Source: a virus. Taken from it: a DNA stretch of 59,537 nucleotides. The stretch is taken from positions 1 to 59,537 of the IMG/VR virus record IMGVR_UViG_3300042154_002141; one strand, written 5' to 3'. The position numbers and the translations under genes were made by a program. The notes under the pieces are model-generated. The model did not search any database, was not told where the DNA came from, and saw only the letters and a list, made by a program, of their open reading frames with translations. Each line of letters begins with the position of its first letter. Positions within the stretch are counted from its first letter, which is position 1. Positions 10,157 through 59,537 of this stretch are shown piece by piece.

Positions 10157-10176
10157 AACGAAAGAGACAGAGACGC

Positions 10177-10503: not shown

Positions 10504-10510
10504 TCTGATG

Positions 10511-10835: not shown

Positions 10836-10844
10836 ACTGAGTAA

Positions 10845-41468: not shown

Positions 41469-41505
41469 GAAATTGAATAATTCGTGCTCCGCACAGCCAG
41501 AATAA
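41469..41505 (+). repeat. Covarying TCC-loop element, copy 1
   Basis: GAAATTGAATAA box, hairpin GTGC-TCC-GCAC (41484-41494), then CCAGAATAA. First copy of the array. Confidence 0.8.
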
Positions 41506-41585
41506 CTAAAACCTTTTTCAAAAGAAAAAGAACGCCGACCTCGACCCACGCTTGACTTGTCAGCCCAAACCGCTAGACTTGTATT

Positions 41586-41846
41586 ATGGAAAGGAACACA
41601 ATGACTAAACCAACCAAAAAATCAGTTATGTATCTAACCCACGCAGACTACGAATGGCGTGGTATGGAGGAGGGCTGGCGAACAGATGTAATCTACCAAG
41701 ATGAAATGGGTCGCCAAACCGACTACTTCTACTCACCAGACGGAGTAGGTTGCTTGTGGGTAGACACGCTAGAAGAACTACTAACGAACTCGTATGACTA
41801 TGACGAGAACACACCAATCATTATTCTAAGACCAAAGGAGGACTAA
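41586..41846 (+). CDS. Unknown 86-residue protein
   Basis: KSVMYLTHADYEWRGMEEGW then RTDVIYQDEMGRQTDYFYSP. TAGACT (41574-41579) lies exactly 6 bases before ATG 41586; a second ATG at 41601, 5 bases after AAAGGA, would remove 5 residues. Stop and next start overlap (TAATG). Confidence 0.7.
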   Translation: MERNTMTKPTKKSVMYLTHADYEWRGMEEGWRTDVIYQDEMGRQTDYFYSPDGVGCLWVDTLEELLTNSYDYDENTPIIILRPKED

Positions 41847-42094
41847 TGAGTAGCAACTACCCAGAGGGTTCTATGCGTGGGTCTGGTATCTACGCACAGG
41901 AAGTTTCGTATGACGAGTTCGATTGCGAGAACGAGGAGTGCGAAAAAACCAACGAGGCAAGTCAAGCAACAACTGACGATTGGGGCAACTACTCTGTGGA
42001 ATGTGAGTTCTGCGGAGTAACCAACCGAGAGAGTAGCCTCGACCAAGACCGAGATGATTACTTCGCGGACTATGACCCGAATGACGAAAGGTAA
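41846..42094 (+). CDS. Acidic zinc-ribbon protein
   Basis: 82 residues. FDCENEECEKTNEAS and VECEFCGVTNRESS give a C-x4-C and CxxC zinc site; the rest is strongly acidic (DQDRDDYFADYDPNDER). Confidence 0.72.
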   Translation: MSSNYPEGSMRGSGIYAQEVSYDEFDCENEECEKTNEASQATTDDWGNYSVECEFCGVTNRESSLDQDRDDYFADYDPNDER

Positions 42095-42098
42095 CAAA

Positions 42099-42494
42099 GT
42101 GAAAGCCAAAATCACAATCGTAATGGAATACGACACCGAGGACTTGTCCTTTATGATGGGAGAAGAAGTCAATGACGGAAACTTCCTTGAAGTCATAAAT
42201 GACAGGATTATCGAGGACATACTTGACGCATACCGACAAGGTGGCGTTGATGCCCTAGCAACAAAAATCAAACTAACCGAAAGTGAAAAAATGTCAAACA
42301 TCAAATACCCAGATGTAAAAGTAAAACTCACAGGCACAGACGGAAACGCCTTTGCGATTATGGGTGCTGTTCAAAAGGCACTCCGTAAGGCTGGCGTTCC
42401 ACAGACGGAACTTGACGAATACTACAAGGAAAGCACAAGTGGCGACTACGACCACTTGCTACAAACCGCTAGTCGTTGGGTCAAAGTTTCCTAA
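42099..42494 (+). CDS. Two-part protein with YPDVKVKLTGTDGN domain
   Basis: 131 residues from GTG 42099. The second part (from MSNIKYPDVKVKLTGTDGNA, then IMGAVQKALRKAGVP and SGDYDHLLQTASRWV) is a widespread actinobacterial/phage domain usually seen as a stand-alone protein. Here it follows a first part (MKAKITIVMEYDTEDLSFMM) in the same frame, so it is a fusion, or an internal start at ATG 42291 makes it separately. AAAGG lies upstream of the GTG. Confidence 0.72.
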   Translation: MKAKITIVMEYDTEDLSFMMGEEVNDGNFLEVINDRIIEDILDAYRQGGVDALATKIKLTESEKMSNIKYPDVKVKLTGTDGNAFAIMGAVQKALRKAGVPQTELDEYYKESTSGDYDHLLQTASRWVKVS

Positions 42495-42540
42495 CCGATA
42501 GCCCGAATGGAGAAATCCGTTCGGGCTTTGGTTTGCCAGC

Positions 42541-42578
42541 GGAAATTGAATAATTGAGCTCCGCTCAAAACAGAATAA
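42541..42578 (+). repeat. Covarying TCC-loop element, copy 2
   Basis: Hairpin TTGAGC-TCC-GCTCAA (42554-42568) between GGAAATTGAATAA and AACAGAATAA. Confidence 0.85.
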
Positions 42579-42700
42579 TTAAAAACCTTTTTCAAAAGAA
42601 AAAAGTCGCGACCCTCCAAAGTTGGTATTGACAAATGTCGGTGCTGTGTGGTTAGATTGTTATGTGAGGCAAATAGACAATCTCACAAGGAGAAATACAA

Positions 42701-43021
42701 ATGAGCAATAACGAATTTCAGTTGCCAGACGACGCAGTATCTATCACTTCAAAAAAGGTGAAAGACGCTATCGCTGACTTTGTTCAGGCAAAGGCAGACG
42801 AAAAATCAGCAAAGGAACGCAAGGCACAAGCCGAGCAACTACTTCGCGAGGCTCTTGACAAGGCTGGCAAAAAGGTTGGCTATGTTGGCAAGACCAAAGC
42901 GTTCTCGTTGGTATCTAGCAAGAACACTTCGTTTGACCGAGAGATGTTGGAAACTATGTTTCCAGAGGCTTTCCAAGCCACTCTACGGACAACCGAATAC
43001 GACTACATCAGAACTGCGTAG
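42701..43021 (+). CDS. Coiled-coil protein, function unknown
   Basis: 106 residues. LPDDAVSITSKKVKDAIADF then a Lys/Ala/Glu helix, and FSLVSSKNTSFDREMLETMF at the end, a pattern seen in phage proteins next to recombination nucleases, but no nuclease is here. Leader hairpin TGTGAG...CTCACA and AAGGAG precede ATG. Pseudoknot copy 1 starts 11 bases after its stop. Confidence 0.72.
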   Translation: MSNNEFQLPDDAVSITSKKVKDAIADFVQAKADEKSAKERKAQAEQLLREALDKAGKKVGYVGKTKAFSLVSSKNTSFDREMLETMFPEAFQATLRTTEYDYIRTA

Positions 43022-43032
43022 TCGCACCCTCC

Positions 43033-43060
43033 ACAACCTAAGCAAGTTGTAAAACTGCTT
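43033..43060 (+). ncRNA. H-type pseudoknot, copy 1
   Basis: Stem 1 ACAAC (43033-43037) / GTTGT (43046-43050); stem 2 AAGCA (43040-43044) / TGCTT (43056-43060). The two stems interlock, with A-rich loop AAAAC crossing stem 1. Lies in the gap 43022-43465. Confidence 0.65.
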
Positions 43061-43141
43061 ACCACCAAGACTTCGCCTTGTAAGTTCAACATTGAGGTAG
43101 TTTCCCCCCAAACTACATTATTCAGAGATGACATTGGCAAG

Positions 43142-43168
43142 TAACCTGAGCAAGTTAGAAAAAGGCTC
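43142..43168 (+). ncRNA. H-type pseudoknot, copy 2
   Basis: Stem 1 TAAC / GTTA (43142-43145, 43154-43157); stem 2 GAGC / GCTC (43148-43151, 43165-43168); loop GAAAAAG. Both stems differ from copy 1 by paired changes. No gene is evident in the rest of 43022-43465 apart from the hairpin element, terminator-like TACCGAG/CTCGGTA (43215-43243) and the next promoter. Confidence 0.62.
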
Positions 43169-43261
43169 TATTCATAGAAATCTCCTTTCTGTAAATAGTG
43201 TGTTGAGGTCGTCTACCGAGGCGTTATGCTTTCTCCTCGGTAGGCGACTAACGCCTTTGAG

Positions 43262-43299
43262 CGGAAATTGAAAATTGGGCTCCGCCCAAAACAGAATAA
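43262..43299 (+). repeat. Covarying TCC-loop element, copy 3
   Basis: Hairpin TTGGGC-TCC-GCCCAA (43275-43289); GAAATTGAAAA before, AACAGAATAA after. Confidence 0.85.
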
Positions 43300-43383
43300 T
43301 TAAAACCTTTTTCAAAAAAGAAAAAGTCCGCCGACCTCAAACTTGTATTGACAAATGTCAGGGCTTTCGTTTAGACTTGACTT

Positions 43384-43442
43384 AGAACCGAGTGAGATAG
43401 AGTAAAGACCTCCCCCTCATTCACTCTCTCACTCGGTTCTAC
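43384..43442 (+). promoter_or_regulatory. Large leader hairpin
   Basis: GAACCGAGTGAGA / TCTCACTCGGTTC, a 13-bp perfect inverted repeat spanning the expected mRNA 5' end, upstream of AGGAG and ATG 43466. Replaces the short ACAACCAA hairpin used by other cassettes. Confidence 0.7.
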
Positions 43443-43465
43443 CTATCAACCAACTAGGAGAAAAA

Positions 43466-43621
43466 ATGGCAATCAATTACCGAAGAACTTTTCAGGGTGC
43501 GTGGGAACTTTACGCCTCCGACAAAAACGGATACTTAGTATCTCGTCAGTATTTCTTTTACACCAAGCGTGAGGCAACGCAGTTGTTTCGTGCGGAAATG
43601 AAGAAGATAAATAATGGCTAA
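43466..43621 (+). CDS. 51-residue protein
   Basis: MAINYRRTFQGAWELYASDK then NGYLVSRQYFFYTKREATQL. Aromatic and basic, probably a small beta-beta-alpha unit as in many phage hypotheticals. AGGAG precedes ATG by 5 bases. Overlaps the next gene by 8 bases. Confidence 0.72.
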   Translation: MAINYRRTFQGAWELYASDKNGYLVSRQYFFYTKREATQLFRAEMKKINNG

Positions 43622-43835
43622 TGTAGTTTTTATTCAAGACATAAATGGCGACACCATTGACGAAGTTCTCTACTGCTCTGACACCTGTGCCAAATCTGAT
43701 GTTTGGTATTCTGGCTGGTATGGCTGTATGGATAACTACACAACCCCGTTCTGCCCAAACTGCCAAACCGCTATGTATTGGACAGACGAAAACACAAACA
43801 CTCACTATCTAGGAAATGAGGAACAAAATGAGTGA
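43614..43835 (+). CDS. Zinc-ribbon protein
   Basis: 73 residues. CSDTCAKSDVWYSGWYGC and CPNCQTAMYW form a treble-clef zinc site. ATG within the end of the previous gene. Confidence 0.72.
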   Translation: MANVVFIQDINGDTIDEVLYCSDTCAKSDVWYSGWYGCMDNYTTPFCPNCQTAMYWTDENTNTHYLGNEEQNE

Positions 43836-44202
43836 AAAACTAGAAGTAAAAAAGAACTACGGAAGTATCATTATTCCGTTCGCTGTTGATGTAAGAGAGT
43901 TCTGGTCTTGCGTTCTCGGTAGTGGCTGGGAGGAAGGCTCTTGGTGGCAGAAGTGGAAATACAGCGAAGGCTCGGATTGGAACGAACCAGGGTTACTTAC
44001 GCTCTGGTGTGAGGACCCCGAAGATTACGACAAGTTCGTAAAGAAGGAACTCAACATTGATGACCTTGTTCGTGGCTACGCTCTCGCAATCAAAGACGAC
44101 TACCACCACTGCGGGGCAAAGATAGATTGGGAGGACTTGGACTTTTGTGGTTCAGACGCAATCCTTCAATACGCTTTCTTTGGAAAGTTAGTCTACGGAT
44201 AA
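43828..44202 (+). CDS. Unknown acidic, Trp-rich protein
   Basis: 124 residues from ATG 43828 behind GAGGAACAAA. FWSCVLGSGWEEGSWWQKWK, then LRGYALAIKDDYHHC-like helix. A domain of this order (GSGWEE..WW) occurs in phage hypotheticals, function unknown. A terminator (AACCCTCAAC-GAAA-GTTGGGGGTT) follows. Confidence 0.7.
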   Translation: MSEKLEVKKNYGSIIIPFAVDVREFWSCVLGSGWEEGSWWQKWKYSEGSDWNEPGLLTLWCEDPEDYDKFVKKELNIDDLVRGYALAIKDDYHHCGAKIDWEDLDFCGSDAILQYAFFGKLVYG

Positions 44203-44251
44203 ACATTCAACGAACAACCCTCAACGAAAGTTGGGGGTTTTTCGTTGCTCG

Positions 44252-44289
44252 GCGGAAATTGAAATTAGTGCTCCGCACAAACAGAATAA
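44252..44289 (+). repeat. Covarying TCC-loop element, copy 4
   Basis: Hairpin GTGC-TCC-GCAC (44268-44278); GGAAATTGAAATT before, AACAGAATAA after. Confidence 0.85.
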
Positions 44290-44328
44290 TTAAAAACTAT
44301 TTTCAGAAGAAAAAAGTCCGCCGACCCC

Positions 44329-44401
44329 TACTTGACTTGGAATACGGATTGTGGTTGAATTATTATGTGGATACAACCAACCACAGAAAGCAGAGGGCAT
44401 T
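44329..44401 (+). promoter_or_regulatory. Cassette promoter and leader hairpin (type example)
   Basis: TTGACT at about 44332, then the leader hairpin TGTGG-ATACAACCAA-CCACA (44366-44385) and AGAGGG before ATG 44402. In other cassettes the -10 box (TAGACT/TAAACT) lies 17 bases after TTGAC and the mRNA should start at or just before this hairpin. Confidence 0.7.
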
Positions 44402-44848
44402 ATGTCCGAACACGAAAACCCAGAAACACCAACCGAGGAAGTTTCTATTGAAACCCTACTCGCAAAGGTAGCCTCTCTTGAAAGCAACTTGGCTTACAAG
44501 ACCTCGCAGTTTGACCGAGCAATCGCAGACCGCAACGAACTCAAAAGCCAAATCACACAAGCCGAAAATCTTGTCGTTGAGGCTGTCAAGGAAGAAGTGC
44601 TTGACGGCGACAGCGAGTTTGTTACTAGCCTTGCTGAAATCTTTGAGTGGGAACTAACCGAAGAACACTCTGTCAAAATCATCATTGAAGTTACAGGAAC
44701 GATTACCACTCCGCTTGGTAAGTCGCTTGAAGGCTTGGAAGATGAGATTGAAGCCGAAATCTCGCTGTCGTATGACCGCCGAAATGACGGATACGACCTT
44801 GACCTTGACTACGGAACAGAAGTAGAAATCAAAGACCGAGGCTACTAA
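44402..44848 (+). CDS. Coiled-coil protein with acidic beta tail
   Basis: 148 residues from ATG 44402. IETLLAKVASLESNLAYKTS then FDRAIADRNELKSQI is coiled coil; the C-terminal half is beta-rich (TGTITTPLGKSLEGLEDEIE). Followed by a terminator CCACACC-GAAA-GGTGTGG. Function unknown. Confidence 0.7.
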   Translation: MSEHENPETPTEEVSIETLLAKVASLESNLAYKTSQFDRAIADRNELKSQITQAENLVVEAVKEEVLDGDSEFVTSLAEIFEWELTEEHSVKIIIEVTGTITTPLGKSLEGLEDEIEAEISLSYDRRNDGYDLDLDYGTEVEIKDRGY

Positions 44849-44894
44849 ACCGAACCAGAGCCACACCGAAAGGTGTGGTTTCTGGCTTTCTGGC

Positions 44895-44930
44895 CAAAAA
44901 TTGAAATTAGGGCTCCGCCCAGACAGAATA
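44895..44930 (+). repeat. Covarying TCC-loop element, copy 5
   Basis: Hairpin GGGC-TCC-GCCC (44910-44920); AAAAATTGAAATT before, GACAGAATAA after. Confidence 0.85.
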
Positions 44931-45039
44931 AGAAAAACTATTTTCAGAAGAAAAAAGTCCGACGAACCGCTCTTGACGAATGTCAGGCTATCGTGATAAC
45001 CTTGACCTGTGGATACAACCAGCCACAAGGGAGAACACT

Positions 45040-45429
45040 ATGTTATCTGAATACGAATACAACAAAATCATTGAGGCTCTTGGACACGCCGAGCGTAACT
45101 CTCACCCATTCAACCGTTCGTCTTGGCGAGAACTTGCCGAGCGAGCAAAAGCCGAACTTCCATACCTAATGTCGTCAAACGGAGGCAGTTGCCAATGTGA
45201 GGATAGACCCTGTTGCTCTTGCGACAGCGACACCTATCTAACTCCATACAACACCGAGGCAGACCCCGGTGATGTTGCGGACGCTTGGCGTGAGCGTATG
45301 GAGTATGACAATGATGATGATGATGAAGAAGTTTATTGTCACTATTGTAAGCAACTAATCGAAAGCGACAACGAAGATGAGTTGATGAATGGTTTTCACG
45401 ACTTATGCGGAGAAACTCGCGGAGAGTAG
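45040..45429 (+). CDS. Unknown acidic protein with cysteine clusters
   Basis: 129 residues from ATG 45040. A helical start (YNKIIEALGHAERNSHPFNR), CQCEDRPCCSCDSD in the middle, then a very acidic region (DNDDDDEEVYCHYCKQLIES) with a CxxC pair. Its leader hairpin TGTGG...CCACA is at 45008-45027. A terminator CCCTTAGCC-GAAA-GGCTAGGGG follows. Confidence 0.7.
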   Translation: MLSEYEYNKIIEALGHAERNSHPFNRSSWRELAERAKAELPYLMSSNGGSCQCEDRPCCSCDSDTYLTPYNTEADPGDVADAWRERMEYDNDDDDEEVYCHYCKQLIESDNEDELMNGFHDLCGETRGE

Positions 45430-45468
45430 TCAAGACCCTTAGCCGAAAGGCTAGGGGTTTTTCCGCTG

Positions 45469-45503
45469 GAAAATTGAAATTAGGGCTCCGCCCAGACAGA
45501 ATA
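45469..45503 (+). repeat. Covarying TCC-loop element, copy 6
   Basis: Hairpin GGGC-TCC-GCCC (45483-45493). Confidence 0.85.
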
Positions 45504-45612
45504 AGAAAAGCATTTTCCAAAGAAAAAAGCTCGCGACCGACCCACGACTTGACTCAAGTCGCGAAGTGTGAAAGACTAGACTTACGGGACAATCCGTAGA
45601 ATGAGGGAACAA

Positions 45613-46116
45613 ATGACAGAGGAAACACAAGAATACAAGGCAACACTAACCAGCGACTGTGTCTGTGAAATCTATGACGAAGAAACAGGCGAGGCAAAGT
45701 TAGACGAGTACGGCTATCCAGAACGACCTGAATGGTGCTATGACTGTTATCGAGAAGAAGTCTTTCAGTTTTACGACAACTTCCTACCTATTTGGCTAGA
45801 ACGCCGAGGCTTGAAAGACGATGGCAAGGTTATGGTTATCGCTGAGAGTATTCGATGGAATCGTACAAACGGAGCAGGTTTCGTTGATGTGTCTGAAATC
45901 CACAAGGTTATGGAAATCGACGGTGACTTCAAGAACAAGTTTACTATCAAGGGTAACGAGTTGTATGCCGTTCGTTATTCTCACGATGAACCGACAGGGA
46001 CAGGCAGGTGGACATTCACGCCAGCCGAGTCTTGCTCGCAATGTGACGGAGGTATTCCTGCCGAAGTCTACGAAGACGAGAACGGTATCTGTGCCAACTG
46101 TAAGGAATACGAGTAG
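45613..46116 (+). CDS. Zinc-binding protein, function unknown
   Basis: 167 residues from ATG 45613, behind GAGGGAACAA. CVCEIYDEETG and CYDCYREE near the N-terminus, and CSQCDGGIPAEVYEDENGIC then CKEYE at the C-terminus, suggest two zinc sites around a mixed domain. Terminator CCTCTCC-GAAA-GGAGAGG follows. Confidence 0.72.
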   Translation: MTEETQEYKATLTSDCVCEIYDEETGEAKLDEYGYPERPEWCYDCYREEVFQFYDNFLPIWLERRGLKDDGKVMVIAESIRWNRTNGAGFVDVSEIHKVMEIDGDFKNKFTIKGNELYAVRYSHDEPTGTGRWTFTPAESCSQCDGGIPAEVYEDENGICANCKEYE

Positions 46117-46162
46117 TATTCAAGCCGAACCTCTCCGAAAGGAGAGGTGAGGCTGGCTGGCC

Positions 46163-46200
46163 GGAAATTGAATAATTTGAACTCCGTTCAAACAGAATAA
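46163..46200 (+). repeat. Covarying TCC-loop element, copy 7
   Basis: Hairpin TTTGAAC-TCC-GTTCAAA (46176-46192), a 7-bp stem with paired changes against TTTGAGC copies. Confidence 0.87.
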
Positions 46201-46306
46201 GAAAAACAAACATCCAAAGAAAAAAGTCCGCCCGACCATACTTGACCGAGGTTGCCGTAAATGGTAACCTTGTAGTGTGGACACAACCAACCATAAGGAG
46301 ATAAAA

Positions 46307-46591
46307 ATGATGAACACTTCCGCAACCAATAAAACTTGGACACAAATCCAAAAGGCAAATCCTACTTGGTTTAGCCCAGAGTCAATGAAGTTTTGGCAAT
46401 CTATCGTCTACTTCGACACCCTAGCCAAGCACGACGACGGCTGGCGTTTTGTGTCAAGCGAAAAAAACTTTGACGGAACTAAAAACCTTTACACCGTCAG
46501 AGTTGCCACCAAACAAGGAATAGAAACTCTTGGCGAGTTTCAGGGATACACAACCCTGAAAGACGCAAAAGAGGCTTTGCTAATCCTCTAA
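46307..46591 (+). CDS. Unknown 94-residue protein
   Basis: From ATG 46307 after AAGGAGATAAAA. TWTQIQKANPTWFSPESMKF, WQSIVYFDTL, then KNLYTVRVATKQGIETLGEF. Leader hairpin TGTGG...CCATA (46276-46295). Confidence 0.7.
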   Translation: MMNTSATNKTWTQIQKANPTWFSPESMKFWQSIVYFDTLAKHDDGWRFVSSEKNFDGTKNLYTVRVATKQGIETLGEFQGYTTLKDAKEALLIL

Positions 46592-46650
46592 CCAAAGACC
46601 GCCTCAAGCCGAGCCTCCCCCCAATCCCTCGGCTTGAGGTTTTGGTGCGT

Positions 46651-46686
46651 GAAATTCTAAATTGCGCTCCGCGCAAACAGAATAAT
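46651..46686 (+). repeat. Covarying TCC-loop element, copy 8
   Basis: Hairpin TTGCGC-TCC-GCGCAA (46662-46676). Confidence 0.85.
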
Positions 46687-46796
46687 CAAAACCAGAAATC
46701 CAAAAAAAAAAAAAGAACGCGCCGCCTCTCTTGACAGATGTCAGGCAGAACCGCTAAACTGATTATGCGGACACAACCAACCGCGAAGGAGAAACT

Positions 46797-47105
46797 ATGC
46801 TTTCAGCAAGAAACCCAAATGAGTTACCAGACTTCGACTTGTCTCAAGAAGAAGTCAAGAACCTTGTTGCTCTCTGTGGAATTATGGCGATGACCATTCA
46901 CTACGGAGTAGACCCAGATGTTCCAGCAGACGCACTTCCAAAAGACATTGTGGAACACGGCGGAATGCTAGGCTTGATGATGAATGGCATTAGAGCCGCC
47001 GACAAGGCTGGCGAACTAGTCCACAACATTATCGAACGAGCCGAGAAAGCCGAAACCGACAAAGTCAACAAGGCGTTCGAGGAAATCGTAAGTCCGTCTG
47101 AATAA
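46797..47105 (+). CDS. Unknown helical protein
   Basis: 102 residues. LPDFDLSQEEVKNLVALCGI then MAMTIHYGVDPDVP. Leader hairpin TGCGG...CCGCG (46766-46785), AAGGAG. Pseudoknot copy 3 follows the stop by 5 bases. Confidence 0.7.
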   Translation: MLSARNPNELPDFDLSQEEVKNLVALCGIMAMTIHYGVDPDVPADALPKDIVEHGGMLGLMMNGIRAADKAGELVHNIIERAEKAETDKVNKAFEEIVSPSE

Positions 47106-47110
47106 ACCAC

Positions 47111-47137
47111 CCACCTGAGCAAGTGGCTAAACTGCTC
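47111..47137 (+). ncRNA. H-type pseudoknot, copy 3
   Basis: Stem 1 CCAC / GTGG (47111-47114, 47123-47126); stem 2 GAGCA / TGCTC (47117-47121, 47133-47137); loop CTAAAC. The following 47138-47270 has no ORF I can support; a terminator GGGGCTA...TAGCCCC lies at about 47273-47294. Confidence 0.65.
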
Positions 47138-47307
47138 ACTACGAGCCAAGACAGTTTTCTAGAATGTGCTGAGACTTGGCGTCTGCTAGTAGACCGCAAT
47201 ACTAGCCGTTGGTAAGCGGAGTGAGGGCTTAGGAGCAATCCGAAGTTGAGACACGAAAAACTATCGCCAGCAGGGGCTATCTTCGGGTAGCCCCTGTGAC
47301 CTACCGC

Positions 47308-47343
47308 TGAAATTGAAATTCGCGCTCCGCGCAAGCAGAATAA
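47308..47343 (+). repeat. Covarying TCC-loop element, copy 9
   Basis: Hairpin GCGC-TCC-GCGC (47322-47332). Confidence 0.85.
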
Positions 47344-47459
47344 CTAAAAACCTTTTCAGAAGAAAAAAACGCCCGCGCCGACCTCTTGTGTTTGACAAGA
47401 CCGCGTAAGTGTGAAAGAATTATTATGCGGACACAACCAACCGCAGAAAGCAGGACACT

Positions 47460-47852
47460 ATGTCCCTAGATTGGAACGCAGAACGCGTCGCTAATTGGAG
47501 CGAAGGCACTGAGGAGTGGAAAGAAAGCGTTGCTTACTTTTGCTACGCACTTATGGCAATCGGAGTGAACAAGGTTACTAAGGAAAACTTAGGCGACATT
47601 TACACCCGTATCAAAATCTGGAACGCCCTTTACGGCCCCGTTCGTTACCGCTACGACGAGGAAACCAAAGTCAAGACTTCGCTCTATGACTACGACTTCC
47701 TACTAAGCGTAATCGGCTACGGAACCAACGTCAGCAACGAAACGTTCGGCCAATGGATAAAGCGTATCGGCAACCGCACCATTGAGGACAGCCAGCGTAA
47801 CTTCGCTAAATCGCTTGAAAAGGCCGAGGGAATAGAACCCGTCGCAGTATAG
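47460..47852 (+). CDS. Unknown 130-residue protein
   Basis: MSLDWNAERVANWSEGTEEW then FCYALMAIGVNKVTKENLGD. Helical, with a basic C-terminal half. Leader hairpin TGCGG...CCGCA (47426-47445). Terminator CCACCTAA...TTAGGTGG follows. Confidence 0.7.
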   Translation: MSLDWNAERVANWSEGTEEWKESVAYFCYALMAIGVNKVTKENLGDIYTRIKIWNALYGPVRYRYDEETKVKTSLYDYDFLLSVIGYGTNVSNETFGQWIKRIGNRTIEDSQRNFAKSLEKAEGIEPVAV

Positions 47853-47898
47853 CCAACGCCACCTAATCAGAAATGGTTAGGTGGCTTCGGCCATTCGC

Positions 47899-47935
47899 TG
47901 AAATTGAAATTAGCGCTCCGCGCAGACAGAATAAC
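47899..47935 (+). repeat. Covarying TCC-loop element, copy 10
   Basis: Hairpin GCGC-TCC-GCGC (47913-47923). Confidence 0.85.
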
Positions 47936-48045
47936 AAAACCCATTTTCAGAAGAAAAAGACCGCGACAAAATCGGTGTTTGACATACCGCACCGTCTGTG
48001 GAAGAATTGTAGTGTGGACACAACCAACCACAATAGGAGAAATCT

Positions 48046-48384: not shown

Positions 48385-48544
48385 GCCCAAGACCGTCTAT
48401 GTCCTCGGTCGCAACTTCGCAATCATTGAAGTTGTTACCGACTCCGACTACGCCTATGAGTGGCTGGCTCACCCCAGCCGACCTAAGAAGGACGGGTTTT
48501 TTGTAAAAGAAGTCCTACTTGACGAATACCTCACCGCAAGGTGA
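48377..48544 (+). CDS. Unknown 55-residue protein
   Basis: From ATG 48377 inside the previous gene's end. MSKPKTVYVLGRNFAIIEVV then a short helix. The terminator CCTCACCG-CAA-GGTGAGG overlaps the stop codon. Confidence 0.66.
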   Translation: MSKPKTVYVLGRNFAIIEVVTDSDYAYEWLAHPSRPKKDGFFVKEVLLDEYLTAR

Positions 48545-48560
48545 GGCTATTCGCCGTTCC

Positions 48561-48597
48561 GGAAATTGAAATTCGCGCTCCGCGCAAACAGAATAAT
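48561..48597 (+). repeat. Covarying TCC-loop element, copy 11
   Basis: Hairpin GCGC-TCC-GCGC (48575-48585). Confidence 0.85.
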
Positions 48598-48708
48598 TAA
48601 ATCAAGATATCCAAAAAGAAAACCGCGCCGGCAGCCACACTTGACCGCCGCACCCTGTCCGGCTAGACTGGACTTAGGGGAAGGCTTCCCCGGAAAAGAG
48701 GTGAGAAG

Positions 48709-48945
48709 ATGACCACGACACTAAGAAAAGCAAGAACCCTCGTAACCGCTATTGCCGTAGACCGCACCCAGGAGGACAGCGACTACCTACCAGAAGGCAA
48801 GGTTGTCCAACTAACTCTATCAACTCACGTTGAGAGAGGCGGGATTATCTCGTCAAGCGACACCGCTTTTTCGCTAGAAGAAACGATTGAACTAATCGCA
48901 AAACTTTCTTCGGCGTTAGAGAAAGCAACAACTTTCACCGAGTAA
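48709..48945 (+). CDS. Unknown 78-residue protein
   Basis: MTTTLRKARTLVTAIAVDRT then LTLSTHVERGGIISSSDTAF. Promoter TTGACC, TAGACT; the leader hairpin is GGGGAAG-CTTCCCC (48677-48691). Confidence 0.68.
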   Translation: MTTTLRKARTLVTAIAVDRTQEDSDYLPEGKVVQLTLSTHVERGGIISSSDTAFSLEETIELIAKLSSALEKATTFTE

Positions 48946-48994
48946 CCAAAGACCAGCCAGCTGCTTTCAGCAGGTGGCTGGTTTGGTTCGCTGC

Positions 48995-49030
48995 CGGAAA
49001 TTGAATTAGCGCTCCGCGCATACAAAATAA
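48995..49030 (+). repeat. Covarying TCC-loop element, copy 12 (variant tail)
   Basis: Hairpin GCGC-TCC-GCGC (49009-49019); the tail is ACAAAATAA rather than ACAGAATAA. Confidence 0.82.
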
Positions 49031-49138
49031 TTAAAACCGGAATCCAAAAAAGAAAACCGCGCCCCGGGGGTTCTTGACATACCTAGCCATCTGTGAAAGG
49101 ATTGAGGTGTGGATACAACCAGCCACACAGGAGAAATA

Positions 49139-49513
49139 ATGAAGAAAGCACTAGTAGTCCAGACCGACGGAAAATCGGAAATCGTTGAATTCAACAACGA
49201 CAACTCACTCGCAGTTTTACAGAAAGCCGTTGATGGTTTGATACAGCCCGTAGATGTTCGACCACCGAACCTAACTATGTGGTGTAACGAGGAAGGCTTA
49301 TTCCGCAACGACTTCACCGAAAACTTTATGGCAACTGCCATTTACGAAGATGCCGTTGGCGTAGAGAACCAATGTATCCTCGGTCCTGTCGTCTTTACAG
49401 GCGGAACAGACCCAGAGGGATACACCGAAGGTTTGAATGACCAAATGCTAGAACTAGTAATGCGAATGGCAGAAGTCCAGCGACAAGCACTCGAACAACT
49501 TTACAAGGAATAG
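49139..49513 (+). CDS. Unknown protein
   Basis: 124 residues from ATG 49139, after AGGAG. MKKALVVQTDGKSEIVEFNN, then MWCNEEGLFRNDFTENFMAT. The layout (KSEIVEF...L..AV.G.I..V.......WCNEEG) matches DUF3846-like proteins of actinobacteria and phages. Leader hairpin TGTGG...CCACA (49108-49127). Terminator CTGCCCGAAAGGGTAG follows. Confidence 0.75.
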   Translation: MKKALVVQTDGKSEIVEFNNDNSLAVLQKAVDGLIQPVDVRPPNLTMWCNEEGLFRNDFTENFMATAIYEDAVGVENQCILGPVVFTGGTDPEGYTEGLNDQMLELVMRMAEVQRQALEQLYKE

Positions 49514-49554
49514 CCAAGAGCGACCTGCCCGAAAGGGTAGGTCGTTTGGCATTT

Positions 49555-49590
49555 GAAAATTGAAAATTGAGCTCCGCTCAAACAGAATAA
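49555..49590 (+). repeat. Covarying TCC-loop element, copy 13
   Basis: Hairpin TTGAGC-TCC-GCTCAA (49567-49581). Confidence 0.85.
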
Positions 49591-49697
49591 AAGAACCCTT
49601 CTCAGAAAAAAAAGTCGCCGCGGTCAGCCTACTTGACTAACCTCACTATCTATGAAAGACTTAGAGAGCGGATACAACCAACCGCAGAGGAGAACCT

Positions 49698-50285
49698 ATG
49701 TTTGATGTCTACAAAGCACGAACCCACTTCCTAGACGACAGCGTTGATAGCATACCAACGCACAGAGTTTTGGAAACGCCAGCCGATAACAAAATCCTTA
49801 TGCCCTCGCAGTTTGTCAAGTATGACTACCCAAAGCCGAGAGATTACGGACAAATCGGCGGATACAGCAAAACCGCCGAACCACTAAAAATCGCTCTTGT
49901 TGATAACGACTACGAGTGGAGGGTTGCTGTTGAGAATTGGATAGATAGCGATTTGTTCATTCGTCAGCCGTTCGGTCTGGAAGAACTTATCCGCAGACCG
50001 AGAGCCGAGCGAGGTAGATACCGACTTCACTACGCTAGGTTTGTGTTGCCAAGCGACAACTACCGCGGAGTGCCTAGTTGGAGTAAGTATTGGTCTGATT
50101 ACTTCTTTGCCTACTACTTCAACAGAAATGGTGAGCGACTATTCATTCACGAAACCGTCGTGGAGGTTGCTTTCAATGATGCCCCTATCTCTTGGCACAA
50201 CAGCAAGCGAGCCTACACCATTCCGCAGGATTGGCTGACCAATCGCATAGACGAGAACAGGCACAAATACGACTTGTTCGCCTAG
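49698..50285 (+). CDS. Unknown 195-residue protein
   Basis: MFDVYKARTHFLDDSVDSIP, then EWRVAVENWIDSDLFIRQPF, RGRYRLHYARFVLPSDNYRG. The largest gene of the array; rich in aromatic residues, no family recognised. Leader hairpin GCGG...CCGC (49668-49685). Terminator GCCTAGCCCGAAAGGGTTAGGC follows. Confidence 0.72.
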   Translation: MFDVYKARTHFLDDSVDSIPTHRVLETPADNKILMPSQFVKYDYPKPRDYGQIGGYSKTAEPLKIALVDNDYEWRVAVENWIDSDLFIRQPFGLEELIRRPRAERGRYRLHYARFVLPSDNYRGVPSWSKYWSDYFFAYYFNRNGERLFIHETVVEVAFNDAPISWHNSKRAYTIPQDWLTNRIDENRHKYDLFA

Positions 50286-50329
50286 CACCGAGAGCCTAGC
50301 CCGAAAGGGTTAGGCTTTTCGGCGTGCCG

Positions 50330-50366
50330 TGAAATTGAAATTTGAGCTCCGCTCAAACAGAATAAG
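50330..50366 (+). repeat. Covarying TCC-loop element, copy 14
   Basis: Hairpin TTTGAGC-TCC-GCTCAAA (50341-50357). Confidence 0.87.
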
Positions 50367-50474
50367 AAACCCCTGAATCCAAAGAAAAAGCCGCCGCGGC
50401 TCGGTTCTTGACTTATGTCAGGCTGGCGTGATAACCTAGGTATGCGGATACAACCAATCCGTAAGGAGATAAAA

Positions 50475-50831
50475 ATGACCACACCCAAAAAACAAGAAGG
50501 CATTGACGAAGTGTTGCTTGCCGTTAGTGAGTTTATCGCCAATGGCGGAACGCTCACCGCTGAAAACTTTGACGACTTCGCGAAGTCATTTGAGCCAAAG
50601 CCAAATCCGTATCTTGAGTATTCGCTAGACACACTTCGCGAAGTATCTAGGATTTACACTTCCTCAATGGATTTAGGTAAGACGATTGTCGTTGATGAAG
50701 TGGAATACACCTACGCCGAGGCTCTTGCTTTTGTTGATGACGCAATCGCTCACCGACAAGAAACCGACTTTTGTCCCCACGATTGGTTTATTCACCAAGA
50801 AGGTCTGTGCGGCTATTGTGAAAGCGAGTAG
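50475..50831 (+). CDS. Unknown protein with terminal Cys/His cluster
   Basis: 118 residues from ATG 50475 after AAGGAGATAAAA. A helical body, then CPHDWFIHQEGLCGYCESE at the end, a likely zinc site. Leader hairpin TGCGGAT...ATCCGTA (50443-50463). Confidence 0.72.
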   Translation: MTTPKKQEGIDEVLLAVSEFIANGGTLTAENFDDFAKSFEPKPNPYLEYSLDTLREVSRIYTSSMDLGKTIVVDEVEYTYAEALAFVDDAIAHRQETDFCPHDWFIHQEGLCGYCESE

Positions 50832-50872
50832 ACGAGAGAGCCAGCCGAAAGGTTGGCTCTTTCTTCGTGCCG

Positions 50873-50908
50873 GGAAATTGAAATTGGAGCTCCGCTCAAA
50901 CAGAATAA
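50873..50908 (+). repeat. Covarying TCC-loop element, copy 15
   Basis: Hairpin GAGC-TCC-GCTC (50887-50897). Confidence 0.84.
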
Positions 50909-51037
50909 CAAAACCAGGAATCCAAAAAAGAAAATCCGCCGCGGTCGCTTAGTATTTGACTTGGCTGCCCCAATCGTGATAGGCTCGTAGTGTCCAGCCC
51001 GCAAGGGGAAGCCTCTAACAAATCGAGAGGAGGAGAA

Positions 51038-51238
51038 ATGACCAAGTTTGTTTTTGCGAAAGCACAAGGCGAAGGTTTTCTCCGAGTAGATAAGAACGAG
51101 TTCAAATTCGTTACTGCCTACCGAGCATTTGCCAAGCACAACGATTTCGTCTGGTTAGACGAATACGACGCCAGCGACTTTCTAGTTGAGTTGCGTCAGC
51201 GTGGAGTGAAGTTTGAAGTAGTTCAGACCGCTCTCTAA
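51038..51238 (+). CDS. Unknown 66-residue protein
   Basis: From ATG 51038. MTKFVFAKAQGEGFLRVDKN then FKFVTAYRAFAKHNDFVWLD. The leader hairpin CCTCT...AGAGG (51012-51030) replaces the usual form. Pseudoknot copy 4 follows the stop by 5 bases. Confidence 0.68.
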   Translation: MTKFVFAKAQGEGFLRVDKNEFKFVTAYRAFAKHNDFVWLDEYDASDFLVELRQRGVKFEVVQTAL

Positions 51239-51243
51239 GTTCC

Positions 51244-51271
51244 ACAACCCGAGCAAGTTGTAAAAAGGCTC
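51244..51271 (+). ncRNA. H-type pseudoknot, copy 4
   Basis: Stem 1 ACAAC / GTTGT (51244-51248, 51257-51261); stem 2 GAGC / GCTC (51251-51254, 51268-51271); loop AAAAAG. It sits between two genes of one transcript, 28 bases before the next ATG. Confidence 0.65.
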
Positions 51272-51299
51272 ACCACAACCAAGAAGAAAAGAGAAACAA

Positions 51300-51449
51300 A
51301 TGGCAACGATAATCCATACTCTCGCTATGCTTTCAGGAGATACCACCGTTCCGGCGGACTTGCTTTCTGAAAACGCCGAGTTGGTAAAAATGGTTTCAGA
51401 TGGAAAATCATACAGAGAACTCTTAGAGTTCATCAACGAAAATTGGTAA
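51300..51449 (+). CDS. 49-residue protein
   Basis: ATG 51300 after AAGAGAAACAA. MATIIHTLAMLSGDTTVPAD then LLSENAELVKMVSDGKSYRE. Followed by the terminator CCCCCTAAC-TTCG-GTTAGGGGG. Function unknown. Confidence 0.66.
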   Translation: MATIIHTLAMLSGDTTVPADLLSENAELVKMVSDGKSYRELLEFINENW

Positions 51450-51486
51450 TCACTGCCCCCTAACTTCGGTTAGGGGGTTTTTCGTT

Positions 51487-51522
51487 GAAATTGAAATTTG
51501 AGCTCCGCTCAAACAGAATAAG
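51487..51522 (+). repeat. Covarying TCC-loop element, copy 16
   Basis: Hairpin TTTGAGC-TCC-GCTCAAA (51497-51513). Confidence 0.87.
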
Positions 51523-51628
51523 AAAACCAGGAATCCAAAAAGAGAAACCGACGCGACCATCCTTGACTTGTCTTGCGATGTGCCGTAGACTTGAAGAGCG
51601 GAGCCAACCAATCCGCAAGGAGAAACAG

Positions 51629-51916
51629 ATGAACCACGAAATTATCGACACTTGGTATGAGTCAACCAACGACTACCGAGCCGCTTGTAGTTGCGGAGCA
51701 ATCTTCGCTAACGATGCTAGAAATAGTCTAGAGCACATCATCGCCGTAGTCAAAAGTGAACTTTCTCTTGCTACCGACTTCTACAAGTCAATGGCACTAG
51801 ACGATGACCTAGATGCCAACTACCGCCAGACTCAGTTTGAGACTGCTTGCGACATCACCGACCGCGTGTTCAATAAAGAAGAAGGCACTACACTCGACGA
51901 GCACCGAGACGAGTAA
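51629..51916 (+). CDS. Unknown 95-residue protein
   Basis: From ATG 51629 after AAGGAGAAACAG. IDTWYESTNDYRAACSCGAI has a CxC motif, then a helical region. Promoter TTGACT-N17-TAGACT; leader hairpin GCGGA...TCCGC (51598-51616). Terminator near 51929-51962 follows. Confidence 0.7.
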   Translation: MNHEIIDTWYESTNDYRAACSCGAIFANDARNSLEHIIAVVKSELSLATDFYKSMALDDDLDANYRQTQFETACDITDRVFNKEEGTTLDEHRDE

Positions 51917-51971
51917 AAGACCACCTAGCCCTGCTACTTGAAGGAAGTAGTGGGGCTAGGTTCTTGCGGCC

Positions 51972-52007
51972 GGAAATTGAAATTTGAGCTCCGCTCAAAC
52001 AGAATAA
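51972..52007 (+). repeat. Covarying TCC-loop element, copy 17
   Basis: Hairpin TTTGAGC-TCC-GCTCAAA (51983-51999). Confidence 0.87.
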
Positions 52008-52118
52008 GAAACCCCTGAATCCAAAGAAAAAGCCGGCGACGCTGCGGTGTTTGACTCGGCTCACCCGACAGCGTAGACTGGAAGAGCGGACACAACCAGC
52101 CGCAAGGAGAAGATACAA

Positions 52119-52418
52119 ATGTCCACCAAAACGACATTTTCAGACCTAACTGAAAACCCACCGAAGAACGCCGACAAGGTTGCCTATCTTGCCGAATGGT
52201 CTACCAACTACGACGCACGAAAAGGAACGCCGTTTATGTTGTTCCTCGACCTAATCGGTTTCAGCGAAGAGTATTTTGGCACTACGCAGACCACCATTCA
52301 CAGCGAGATTACTGGCTTTCTTGAGGCAGGACTAATTGGCGAAGCACTTGTCCAGTTTTCCGACCACCCGCAAGATGTAGTGAACTACTGCCAGCAACTT
52401 GTAAACGCCGAGCAGTAA
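52119..52418 (+). CDS. Unknown 99-residue protein
   Basis: MSTKTTFSDLTENPPKNADK, then FMLFLDLIGFSEEYFG. Helical. Leader hairpin GCGG...CCGC (52086-52103), AAGGAG. Terminator GCCCTGCCACTT...AAGTGGCAGGGC follows. Confidence 0.7.
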   Translation: MSTKTTFSDLTENPPKNADKVAYLAEWSTNYDARKGTPFMLFLDLIGFSEEYFGTTQTTIHSEITGFLEAGLIGEALVQFSDHPQDVVNYCQQLVNAEQ

Positions 52419-52473
52419 CCCCAAGACCGCCCTGCCACTTTCCCCCAAGTGGCAGGGCTCTCGGCGTGCGGCC

Positions 52474-52510
52474 GAAAATTGAAATTGAGCTCCGCTCAAA
52501 CAGAATAATT
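52474..52510 (+). repeat. Covarying TCC-loop element, copy 18
   Basis: Hairpin TTGAGC-TCC-GCTCAA (52485-52499). Confidence 0.86.
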
Positions 52511-52621
52511 TTCTTTTGTTGTCCAAAGAAAAAAGCCCGCGGTGACCTCCTTGACCAATGTCACCCTGTTCGGCTAAACTGAAAGAGCGGAGCCGACAAA
52601 TCCGCAAGGAGAAAACACCAG

Positions 52622-52894
52622 ATGAACGATGACAACACTACCCAAACAGAGCGGAACGCCGTCTTTGCTGTGGAGGCTCTAGCCGAGGTCTTCGGCAGAG
52701 AACTCCGCTCGTACGAGTACGACTTCTTTCTCGTCAAGTGCTTCAACCACCCAGAGATTGACCCACTTGCGACCAAGTGCCTCACCGAGCCTGTCCACTA
52801 CGCGGAGCAGAACTTTGAGAACCTTCAAGCAAAACTCCGCGAGTTGTTTCTTATCCGCCGACCGAACAGCGACCCAGAGACTCCGCCGTTCTAG
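52622..52894 (+). CDS. Unknown 90-residue protein
   Basis: MNDDNTTQTERNAVFAVEAL, then CFNHPEIDPLATKCLTEPVH. Helical. Promoter TTGACC-N17-TAAACT; leader hairpin GCGGA...TCCGC (52587-52605). Terminator CCTGCCACTT...GAGTGGCAGG follows. Confidence 0.7.
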   Translation: MNDDNTTQTERNAVFAVEALAEVFGRELRSYEYDFFLVKCFNHPEIDPLATKCLTEPVHYAEQNFENLQAKLRELFLIRRPNSDPETPPF

Positions 52895-52946
52895 CCAAGA
52901 CCGCCCTGCCACTTCCCCCGAGTGGCAGGGTTTTGGTTTGCTCGGT

Positions 52947-52980
52947 GGAAATTCAATTTGGGCTCCGCCCACGCAGAATA
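52947..52980 (+). repeat. Covarying TCC-loop element, copy 19
   Basis: Hairpin TGGGC-TCC-GCCCA (52959-52971), box GGAAATTCAATT, tail CGCAGAATAA. Confidence 0.83.
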
Positions 52981-53230
52981 ACTTTGCACCCCGTTCTCGC
53001 TCGGTTCGCAAGCTGCCGCGATCTTTGCGGCTCGATAGCTGAACGCTCCTTCGTCGCTTTTCAGCCTCGCCGCTGCAGACGCCGGCAGCGCGCTCACCTC
53101 TCGCTCGGCTCCCCGGCTGCCGCGATCCTCCCAGGCTGCGAGCTGCCCGGCTTCGCTTCGCTCAGACAGGGCAGCGCCTTGCCTGGCTCGGACGCTGGCG
53201 GCCGGCTCGCTTGTCGCCGGACTGCGTACC
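52981..53230. other. GC-rich block without a gene, bracketed by two elements
   Basis: About 250 bases much richer in G and C than the array around it, with repeated GCTGCCGCGATC (about 53010, 53117), GCTTCGCTTCGCTC and many short palindromes. No ORF has a ribosome binding site or plausible codon use. It sits exactly between elements 19 and 20, where other cassettes carry a gene. Confidence 0.6.
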
Positions 53231-53265
53231 GAAATTGAAATTCGCACTCCGTGCAAACAGAATAA
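53231..53265 (+). repeat. Covarying TCC-loop element, copy 20
   Basis: Hairpin GCAC-TCC-GTGC (53244-53254). Confidence 0.85.
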
Positions 53266-53308
53266 CTTTCTTCGTTCTCTGAAGAAAAAAGCGCCGACCC
53301 TGCCGTTC

Positions 53309-53422
53309 TTGACTTATCTCACCATCTATGGCAGACTAGACTTACAACTGAATAGCGAGGCTCGCTACCCCCCAAGGCGAGCCTCGCACCACCCATCTGT
53401 TCACGAACAAAGGAAAATCCTT
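53309..53422 (+). promoter_or_regulatory. Cassette promoter with 12-bp leader hairpin
   Basis: TTGACT then CAGACT; the leader holds GCGAGGCTCGC / GCGAGCCTCGC (about 53354-53388), a near-perfect inverted repeat, before AAAGGA and ATG 53423. Confidence 0.65.
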
Positions 53423-53710
53423 ATGCTCAAATACATACCAATCAGTTTCGTTACTATCGTTTGCTGGTCGCTAGCGACTATCACGCAGAACGGAGTAACC
53501 CGATACTCCGTCATTGGCGACCTAGAAAGTGCCGAACGCCTACTAGGTGCTATGTGGCTATTCACTGCCGCAAGTCTACTTATGTTCGCCACTCTCGCCC
53601 TAATGCTTGTGTTCGACCTACGCCGAAAGTCAGCCTATCCAATGGAAGTCTGCTCAAGCGAATGCGACAAGAAGTGTGCGGACAACAACCACTACGAGTG
53701 GAACAACTAA
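53423..53710 (+). CDS. Two-helix membrane protein
   Basis: 95 residues from ATG 53423. Helix 1 ISFVTIVCWSLATI, helix 2 LLGAMWLFTAASLLMFATLA. The C-terminal tail CSSECDKKCADNN could bind a metal. The only membrane protein of the array. Confidence 0.72.
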   Translation: MLKYIPISFVTIVCWSLATITQNGVTRYSVIGDLESAERLLGAMWLFTAASLLMFATLALMLVFDLRRKSAYPMEVCSSECDKKCADNNHYEWNN

Positions 53711-53768
53711 CCACCGACCACCTAGCCCTGTCTATTCCCCCAATAGGCAGGGCTAGGCTTTTGTGGCC

Positions 53769-53802
53769 GAAAATTGAATTCGAGCTCCGCTCAAACAGAA
53801 TA
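53769..53802 (+). repeat. Covarying TCC-loop element, copy 21
   Basis: Hairpin GAGC-TCC-GCTC (53782-53792). Confidence 0.85.
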
Positions 53803-53915
53803 AAAAGACCTTGTTCTCCAAAGAAAAAAGCCGCGCCGTTCCCTGTTCTTGACTTACTTCACCAAATCCCGTAGACTGAAAGTGCGGAGCCAACCAATCC
53901 GCAAGGAGAAATAAG

Positions 53916-54245
53916 ATGAACGAAAAGCCCGAAGTTACTCTTGACGAACTACGAGAGAACCTAAACAACAACCCACAATTCGACATTGACCTAGCCCAAA
54001 CGCAAGTGTGGCTAATCGGCAAAGATGTCGAACGCTCGGTAGCGGATGCGGTAAACCAACTAGAAATCGGGACACTTGCCACCGAGAAGTTAGCCGACAT
54101 TGTAAAAATCCAACTACCGACCCTGAAAAAAGTTGTTGAACTTATGTCGTTAGTTGCCTTCTACGACAGCTCAATCGGCAAACCATTTATGACCAGCGTT
54201 CTTCAACGCAATCTTGTTCAGCACAGGGTAGTCAGCGAAGATTAG
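53916..54245 (+). CDS. Unknown 109-residue protein
   Basis: MNEKPEVTLDELRENLNNNP, then EIGTLATEKLADIVKIQLPT. Helical. Promoter TTGACT-N17-TAGACT; leader hairpin TGCGGA...TCCGCA (53883-53903). Terminator GAGCCTAGCC-GAAA-GGTTAGGTTC follows. Confidence 0.7.
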   Translation: MNEKPEVTLDELRENLNNNPQFDIDLAQTQVWLIGKDVERSVADAVNQLEIGTLATEKLADIVKIQLPTLKKVVELMSLVAFYDSSIGKPFMTSVLQRNLVQHRVVSED

Positions 54246-54294
54246 CCGAACCACCGAGAGCCTAGCCGAAAGGTTAGGTTCTCGGTCTGCGGCC

Positions 54295-54328
54295 GAAAAT
54301 TGAATTCGCGCTCCGCGCAAACAGAATA
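54295..54328 (+). repeat. Covarying TCC-loop element, copy 22
   Basis: Hairpin GCGC-TCC-GCGC (54308-54318). Confidence 0.85.
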
Positions 54329-54439
54329 AAAGAACCCTTCACCCAAAGAAAAAAGCCGCGCCGTTTCCCGTTCTTGACTTATCTCACCCGTTCCTGTAAA
54401 CTGAAAATGCGGGTAAGACCAACCCGTAAGGAGAAGATT

Positions 54440-54775
54440 ATGTCCAAATACACGCCCGAACAGGAAAAGGAAATGGTGAACAACGCCGTTTTTGACCTAC
54501 TCACTCTTTTAGAGCGAGAAGTTTTGGAATACAACAAGAGTTTCGCAGACTACTTTGTTGAACTTGTTGAGAAGAACGACACTGAGAAGCTGAAAGAAGT
54601 TGCCCTTGTTTTTGCCAAAGGCGTAAAGCAAGACGCAGACCTACACGAAATCACCACCGCCGTAGTTGCTAATGGCAAACTATCGCTACGCAACGCACTC
54701 GCTATGGCGGATTGGCAACTACAAAGCCAAATCACCGAACGCCACTACGACACCTACTTAGCCCACTTAGGCTAA
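54440..54775 (+). CDS. Unknown helical protein
   Basis: 111 residues from ATG 54440. KYTPEQEKEMVNNAVFDLLT then LEREVLEYNKSFADYFVELV. Promoter TTGACT-N17-TAAACT; leader hairpin GCGGGT...ACCCGT (54409-54427). Last full cassette of the array. Confidence 0.7.
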   Translation: MSKYTPEQEKEMVNNAVFDLLTLLEREVLEYNKSFADYFVELVEKNDTEKLKEVALVFAKGVKQDADLHEITTAVVANGKLSLRNALAMADWQLQSQITERHYDTYLAHLG

Positions 54776-54832
54776 CCAGACCCCTAGCCCTGCTACTTAT
54801 CCCCCAAGTAGCAGGGTTAGGCTTTTGCGGCC

Positions 54833-54868
54833 GGAAATTGAATTTGCGCTCCGCGCAGACAGAATAAC
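54833..54868 (+). repeat. Covarying TCC-loop element, copy 23 (last)
   Basis: Hairpin TGCGC-TCC-GCGCA (54845-54857). Marks the right end of the array; the following promoter and leader are of a different type. Confidence 0.85.
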
Positions 54869-59260: not shown

Positions 59261-59398
59261 TTACTACTCCTTTGGTTGTGGCTTGTCTGGGTGACTTGCC
59301 TAAGGCAAGTCTAATGCCTATTCAACAATCAAGTCAAGTCTATTTGGTAACGATTTGATAACGCTGGCTAATCCGTCTACCTAATCCGTCTAACACTT
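59261..59398. promoter_or_regulatory. Region upstream of the minus-strand gene
   Basis: Contains AAGTCTAATGCC and TAATCCGTCTA repeated twice (about 59368 and 59381). Probably the minus-strand promoter. No gene seen. Confidence 0.35.
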
Positions 59399-59508: not shown

Positions 59509-59537
59509 CTGGCTGGCTGGCTGGCTGGGCTTGGGCT

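Follow-up and report, generated by a model that had tools for sequence, protein, structure and literature searches.

A covarying hairpin element in a small-gene array of an actinophage, and its possible role as a DNA hairpin at promoters

A phage sequence of 59,537 bases, IMG/VR record IMGVR_UViG_3300042154_002141 (here called the window, and probably a genome fragment), carries 23 copies of a covarying hairpin element in an array of small genes. The best explanation, to which we give somewhat less than an even chance, is that each copy is a DNA hairpin that would be extruded by supercoiling and act at the promoter beside it. The observed basis consists of the copy number, the covariation of the stems, the fixed distance to a sigma70-like promoter, the classes of loop, and the recurrence of hairpins at one position in several lineages. 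The element is A-rich and bears a short hairpin; in the window phage it has the form of a tract, AAATTGAAA-hairpin-AGAATAA. The loops span 41488 to 54850, and the elements are as follows.

Element 1: 41470..41505, + strand, stem GTGC, loop TCC
Element 2: 42543..42578, + strand, stem TTGAGC
Element 3: 43264..43299, + strand, stem TTGGGC
Element 4: 44256..44289, + strand, stem GTGC
Element 5: 44898..44931, + strand, stem GGGC
Element 6: 45471..45504, + strand, stem GGGC
Element 7: 46165..46200, + strand, stem TTTGAAC, heptamer ACTCCGT
Element 8: 46652..46685, + strand, stem TTGCGC
Element 9: 47310..47343, + strand, stem GCGC
Element 10: 47901..47934, + strand, stem GCGC
Element 11: 48563..48596, + strand, stem GCGC
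Element 12: 48998..49030, + strand, stem GCGC, tail CAAAATAA
Element 13: 49557..49590, + strand, stem TTGAGC
Element 14: 50332..50365, + strand, stem TTTGAGC
Element 15: 50875..50908, + strand, stem GAGC
Element 16: 51488..51521, + strand, stem TTTGAGC
Element 17: 51974..52007, + strand, stem TTTGAGC
Element 18: 52476..52508, + strand, stem TTGAGC
Element 19: 52949..52981, + strand, stem TGGGC; usual slot without TTGA[CT], and no gene before element 20
Element 20: 53232..53265, + strand, stem GCAC, heptamer ACTCCGT
Element 21: 53771..53803, + strand, stem GAGC
Element 22: 54297..54329, + strand, stem GCGC
Element 23: 54835..54867, + strand, stem TGCGC; usual slot without TTGA[CT]

The element is real and structured. 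A scan of the window finds the hairpin with the loop TCC on the + strand in all 23 copies, and it is intact in every one. The tail CA[AG]AATAA used alone as a query returns the same 23 elements, each with a hairpin; two further tail matches fall outside the array. The exact pattern GCTCCGCNCANRCAGAATAA has 17 forward matches and none in a reversed control. The covariation score of the 23-copy alignment is 0.315, against 0.117 +/- 0.018 for shuffles, with none of 500 shuffles as high, and the score is at most 0.078 once the pairing partner is slid. Column pair 22/30, the third from the loop, takes all four Watson-Crick types (AU 9, CG 8, GC 4, UA 2), and G-U is absent from the four innermost pairs of every copy. 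The perfect stem is merely 4-5 bp long in 14 of them. An initial annotation, made from the letters alone, had described 23 intergenic copies of a hairpin with a TCC loop in which structure rather than sequence is conserved, and both points are confirmed. The flanking sequences it gave hold in part: the tail finds all 23 copies, but AAATTGAAATT is exact in just 12 and the tail reads CAAAATAA in one (element 12).

The near-constant distance between hairpin and promoter suggests a role tied to the promoter. From the loop to the TTGA[CT] hexamer the mean is 62.1 nt (sd 2.6, range 59-68) in 21 of the 23 copies, while no TTGA[CT] lies at the usual distance after loops 52964 and 54850. The region from 41.4 to 54.9 kb consists of small genes on the + strand, organized in units that all have a promoter and mostly a terminator as well.

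41552..54402, + strand: 21 sigma70-like promoters of the TTGAC..TAnACT type, each 59-68 nt past a loop
41586..54775, + strand: small array genes, about 28 open reading frames (ORFs), the tested ones without a Pfam match
44350..54440, + strand: 5' leader hairpins, for example TGCGG[ACACAACCAA]CCGCA, ahead of the ribosome binding site in about 14 cassettes

The initial annotation had described the intervals as usually holding one small gene with a TTGAC promoter. The promoter is there for 21 of the 23 copies, but judged by ORFs four intervals contain two or three genes (41586-42494, 43467-44202, 48046-48544, and 51038-51449) and the interval from 52964 to 53248 contains none. Between elements 19 and 20, positions 52985-53230 are GC-rich, noncoding, and promoter-less, and a similar stretch occupies the matching place in the related phage G007. 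The leader hairpins are a second covarying hairpin in the array, with paired stems that vary.

Hairpins occupy the same slot before the promoter in three phage lineages. The relatives compared are mostly fragments of close-relative phages, and the array phages are known as fragments only; by terminase the window phage falls near Actinomycetia phage DSL-LC01 (77% identical), followed by Microbacterium and Gordonia phages. In the window phage, G006, and G007 the hairpin lies within the tract given above, and in G013, G014, and G015 the hairpins have unrelated flanks and at times come in tandem groups of two or three. G008, G011, and G012 have the A-rich tract and lack such hairpins (G008 has almost none). 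The mean distance from loop to -35 is 65.5 nt in G007, 62.0 in G013, and 63.4 in G015, and it is shorter in G014, at 53.4 nt. In orthologous cassettes of the window phage, G006, and G007 the stems differ, often wholly, while the hairpin is mostly kept; stem and loop are replaced even beside genes whose proteins are up to 97% identical. The copies inside one genome share a loop type and flanks, a sign of concerted evolution. A DNA search of a phage collection with the array as query gave no match. Pattern scans found the window element in only two near-identical contigs and in no bacterial genome, and scans with G006-, G007-, and G013/G015-type patterns gave no new lineages, some single hits not having been read individually. 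The element appears to be undescribed as far as these searches reach. In the window phage, TTGAAA and CAGAAT stand 16-19 nt apart on either side of the hairpin, so that the element can also be read as a weak sigma70 promoter in itself. We reject this reading, which fits only the window phage and, roughly, G006; the spacer is longer in G007 and the hexamers are missing from G013 and G015.

The loops belong to classes that are stable in DNA. Among 109 hairpins from a search that required the GC-loop-GC form or its complement, the loops are TCC (34), TGC (30), TAC (23), and TTC (22). Thus the middle base of the T-N-C loop is free, while the first and last loop bases and the closing C-G are constant. 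On the opposite strand these loops read c(GNA)g, and the bottom strand of the window has c(GGA)g. That GNA triloops are unusually stable in DNA is well established. An unrestricted triloop search also puts GCTNCGC cores first in G013, G014, and G015. These loop counts replace an automated tally of promoter windows that had mixed in upstream terminators. G006 has mostly a TATC loop; its opposite-strand form, c(GATA)g, belongs to the d(cGNNAg) class, and the d(gCNNGc) class is represented by one G007 copy, GCCGAG(CAAG)CTCGGC. Both classes are named as stable DNA tetraloop motifs in the reference as quoted in PMC2984261. The initial annotation was right about a fixed TCC loop in the window, but it missed the known stable DNA-hairpin classes and the match to the promoters of phage N4 discussed below.

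A role at the RNA level is improbable. The hairpin could be an intrinsic terminator of leftward antisense RNA from a bidirectional promoter, sparing the upstream gene. About 13 of the 23 copies look terminator-like on the - strand in a simple scan, and a T-rich stretch follows the bottom-strand hairpin in G013 and G015. However, a T-rich stretch (at least 5 T in 8) is found in only 6 of the 23 window copies and in 0 of 22 in G014, the + strand side has about 0.7 T in 8 nt and so no T run, and many stems are of 4 bp. The loops are of DNA type, while + strand terminators here often have GAAA loops. The absence of G-U from the inner four pairs makes a weak contrast, since just 3 of 69 pairs in the leader hairpins are G-U.

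Comparison with N4 separates the features needed for extrusion from those read by a polymerase. In N4, extrusion requires a loop-closing C-G together with a 5' G and a 3' A in the loop, and such hairpins extrude in vivo at physiological supercoiling (PMC4496689). A sigma70 promoter becomes gyrase-dependent when N4 P1 is placed in it (PMC4496689), showing that such hairpins are able to act on ordinary promoters. The N4 polymerase reads a purine at -11, G at -10, G at -8, and C at +1, and the leftmost 10% of the genome contains the three early promoters (PMC4496689). As a positive control, the same scan was applied to the first 9 kb of N4, where the sole GCTNCGC hairpins are its three promoter hairpins. 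We take these hits to be P1, P2, and P3, in keeping with the review's statement on the leftmost 10%. In the window a three-base loop, the closing C-G, and a template loop running from 5' G to 3' A are present in all 23 copies, and at the polymerase positions -11 and -10 fit in 23, -8 fits in 21, and +1 is C by spacing in most. About half of the loops in the relatives are TGC or TAC, which puts a pyrimidine at -11, and the loops of G006 have four bases. Across the lineages the extrusion set of N4 is therefore conserved and the polymerase-contact set is relaxed, with -11 free. This is the main argument for a DNA hairpin that works without an N4-type polymerase.

The extruded bottom-strand hairpin might nevertheless itself serve as promoter for a phage RNA polymerase of N4 virion type. 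Transcription would then have an additional start ahead of the TTGAC promoter, at the G of CAGAATAA. In N4, P1, P2, and P3 have the GC[TNC]GC hairpin in the orientation found here and likewise precede small genes, which are early genes in that phage, and the window copies fit the bases that the polymerase reads. The pyrimidine at -11 and the four-base loops elsewhere speak against it, as does the sigma70-like promoter at a fixed distance from each element, and we regard it as very improbable. No relative of the N4 mini virion RNA polymerase (mini-vRNAP) was detected in the window, the two near-identical contigs, the other array phages (fragments), or long relatives including the complete DSL-LC01, in a search that detected the N4 control; a PF00940 search was silent too, as were its own positive controls. 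An 890-aa protein of the window (24312-26984) was considered as a polymerase and appears to be a coiled-coil protein that is exported and has a lectin-like part, and a 3290-aa protein of DSL-LC01 has no convincing motifs of a T7-type polymerase. It is also quite improbable that the hairpins are N4-like promoters or switches recognized by structure, with a phage RNA polymerase or hairpin-binding factor yet to be discovered as their reader. In that case about two dozen small genes would share a supercoiling-gated start.

A DNA hairpin acting at the sigma70-like promoter remains the preferred reading. The short inverted repeat at the beginning of each cassette would fold as a DNA rather than an RNA hairpin, or as a cruciform if both strands fold. 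The bottom strand bears the extra-stable c(GGA)g, and related phages use other loops of the same DNA classes. Negative supercoiling behind and between tandem transcription units, or from gyrase, may extrude the hairpin, which could absorb local supercoiling or mark a site of open DNA some 100 bp ahead of the start. The adjacent promoter might in this way be tuned or insulated from its closely packed neighbors. The hairpins would be rewritten fast and kept uniform within each genome through conversion between copies, and the cassettes would be shuffled via the long repeated intergenic stretch rather than by the hairpin itself.

Several observations weigh against this reading, in which extrusion and the promoter effect are what we infer from sequence. 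G008, with a terminase 96% identical, retains the tract and the promoters almost without such hairpins, which makes the hairpin dispensable. The terminase tree mixes hairpin-bearing and hairpin-less records, with at least three changes. The loop is on the other strand in four G007 copies, and computed folding energies do not tell RNA from DNA strand by strand, so that the comparison of RNA and DNA folds is uninformative. Also, GCTNCGC outnumbers GCGNAGC in noncoding DNA away from promoters, by 21:0 after the terminase gene of the related record L038 and by 14:1 in noncoding DNA of G012. Because the polarity extends beyond promoters, strand orientation is unusable as support for recognition of the template strand, and the pattern could plausibly have arisen by mutation linked to replication.

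The chief rival reading is a neutral origin by mutation, unlikely but not negligible. Snap-back (template-switch) replication at c(GNA)g hairpins would make, and repeatedly mend, perfect inverted repeats within the noncoding parts of this region, and duplication or conversion would spread copies that have no function of their own. The polarity outside promoters, seen in hairpin-less relatives as well, is in keeping with such an origin, as are the unrelated C[TTC]G inverted repeats that crowd the stretch after the L038 terminase gene, the stable DNA loop classes, the arms that stay perfect while their sequence changes, and the patchy distribution. On the other hand, GCTNCGC hairpins are almost confined to the array in G013, G014, and G015, the promoter distance is nearly equal in three lineages, and all 23 copies of the window phage are intact.

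The cassettes are shuffled as transcription units, and the hairpin is not required for this. The window phage and its closest relatives do not have the same gene order. Reciprocal best hits were counted in four genome pairs (the window phage with G007 and with G008, G013 with G015, and G011 with G012). With gaps below 100 nt none of 11 adjacencies is broken, against 30 of 70 with wider gaps (one-sided hypergeometric, by hand, about 0.004, for pairs that share a genome and a wide class that includes non-direct neighbors). That tight pairs are kept and wide ones broken suggests that transcription units are the shuffled pieces, in agreement with the modular cassettes proposed at the outset. The proposal that the element is a recombination site is not supported in the form given. 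A recombination or cruciform-cleavage site that drives shuffling, like the promoter-early stem-loop (PeSL) elements of T4-type phages or integron attC sites, has little probability. In its favor, whole transcription units are what moves, and a RuvC-like resolvase and a RecA-like protein are encoded by a related phage. Alignment of relatives at the element, the check suggested with that proposal, does place the junctions within the repeated element-promoter-leader stretch, but hairpin-less relatives reshuffle equally: G011-G012 has 10 adjacencies broken and 9 kept at 70% identity, compared with 9 and 6 at 78% for the window phage and G007. G008, which has the A-rich tract without triloop hairpins, is reshuffled too. 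Since the whole repeat is similar between copies, junctions are not placeable inside it. Similarity along the entire intergenic repeat may play a part in shuffling, but not the hairpin in itself.

If they act as proposed, these elements would show that extruded DNA hairpins next to promoters are used beyond the N4 relatives, in a large group of freshwater actinophages. They provide naturally occurring sets, each of dozens of hairpins, with loops that sample almost every member of the stable DNA-loop classes, and they make the regulation of tandem promoters by cruciforms testable in vivo.

Other features were observed outside the array. Rfam identifies a tmRNA gene (98 bits) at 12760-13102 of the window and a tRNA (51 bits) at 17900-17971; ARAGORN found neither. 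In L038 a long noncoding stretch after the terminase gene (9430-11836) is dense in TCGCTTCGCTCG-like motifs and one-polarity C[TTC]G inverted repeats. It also contains repeated ACTGGAGTTGAAC, which is found around the window terminase gene as well (57383, 58818, and 58962). The end of the window (59396-59537) is a GGGCTT tandem repeat, and many contigs of relatives likewise end shortly after the terminase gene.

The element shares features with several known systems. The parallel with attC sites finds no support, as the GTTRRRY core site is absent from the aligned elements. PeSL elements are repeats of a promoter and a stem-loop between small shuffling genes, and they are a fair analogy for the layout, since the window hairpin is also linked to a promoter between such genes. 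Here, however, the hairpin precedes the promoter, belongs to the DNA type, and is no terminator, and shuffling can do without it. The extended start-associated sequence (ESAS) of cluster K mycobacteriophages is likewise a many-copy inverted repeat of unknown function that precedes some of the genes of an actinophage (PMC3203893). The ESAS repeats are conserved, imperfect, and 17 bp long, with 4-13 bp between them, and they lie near the start codon, next to a 13-bp start-associated sequence (SAS) (PMC3203893), whereas the arms here vary by covariation and lie about 100 bp upstream of the transcription start. DSL-LC01 (L113, 6789-17517) has about 25 copies of a repeated operator-promoter, GATTCTAAAGATGTTATAATAGAATC, before small genes in the same layout of single-gene units; unlike the window phage it has TATAAT inside the dyad and no hairpin slot. 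The vRNAP promoters P1-P3 of N4 (Schitoviridae) likewise have a short perfect stem and a three-base loop before small genes, with a GCTNCGC core on the non-template strand and an extra-stable GNA loop on the template strand. The array differs from N4 in that no such polymerase was found, a sigma70-like promoter lies 62 nt downstream of the hairpin, the middle loop base is free, and some loops of relatives have four bases or are inverted. The window phage has 23 copies of its hairpin, compared with three in N4.

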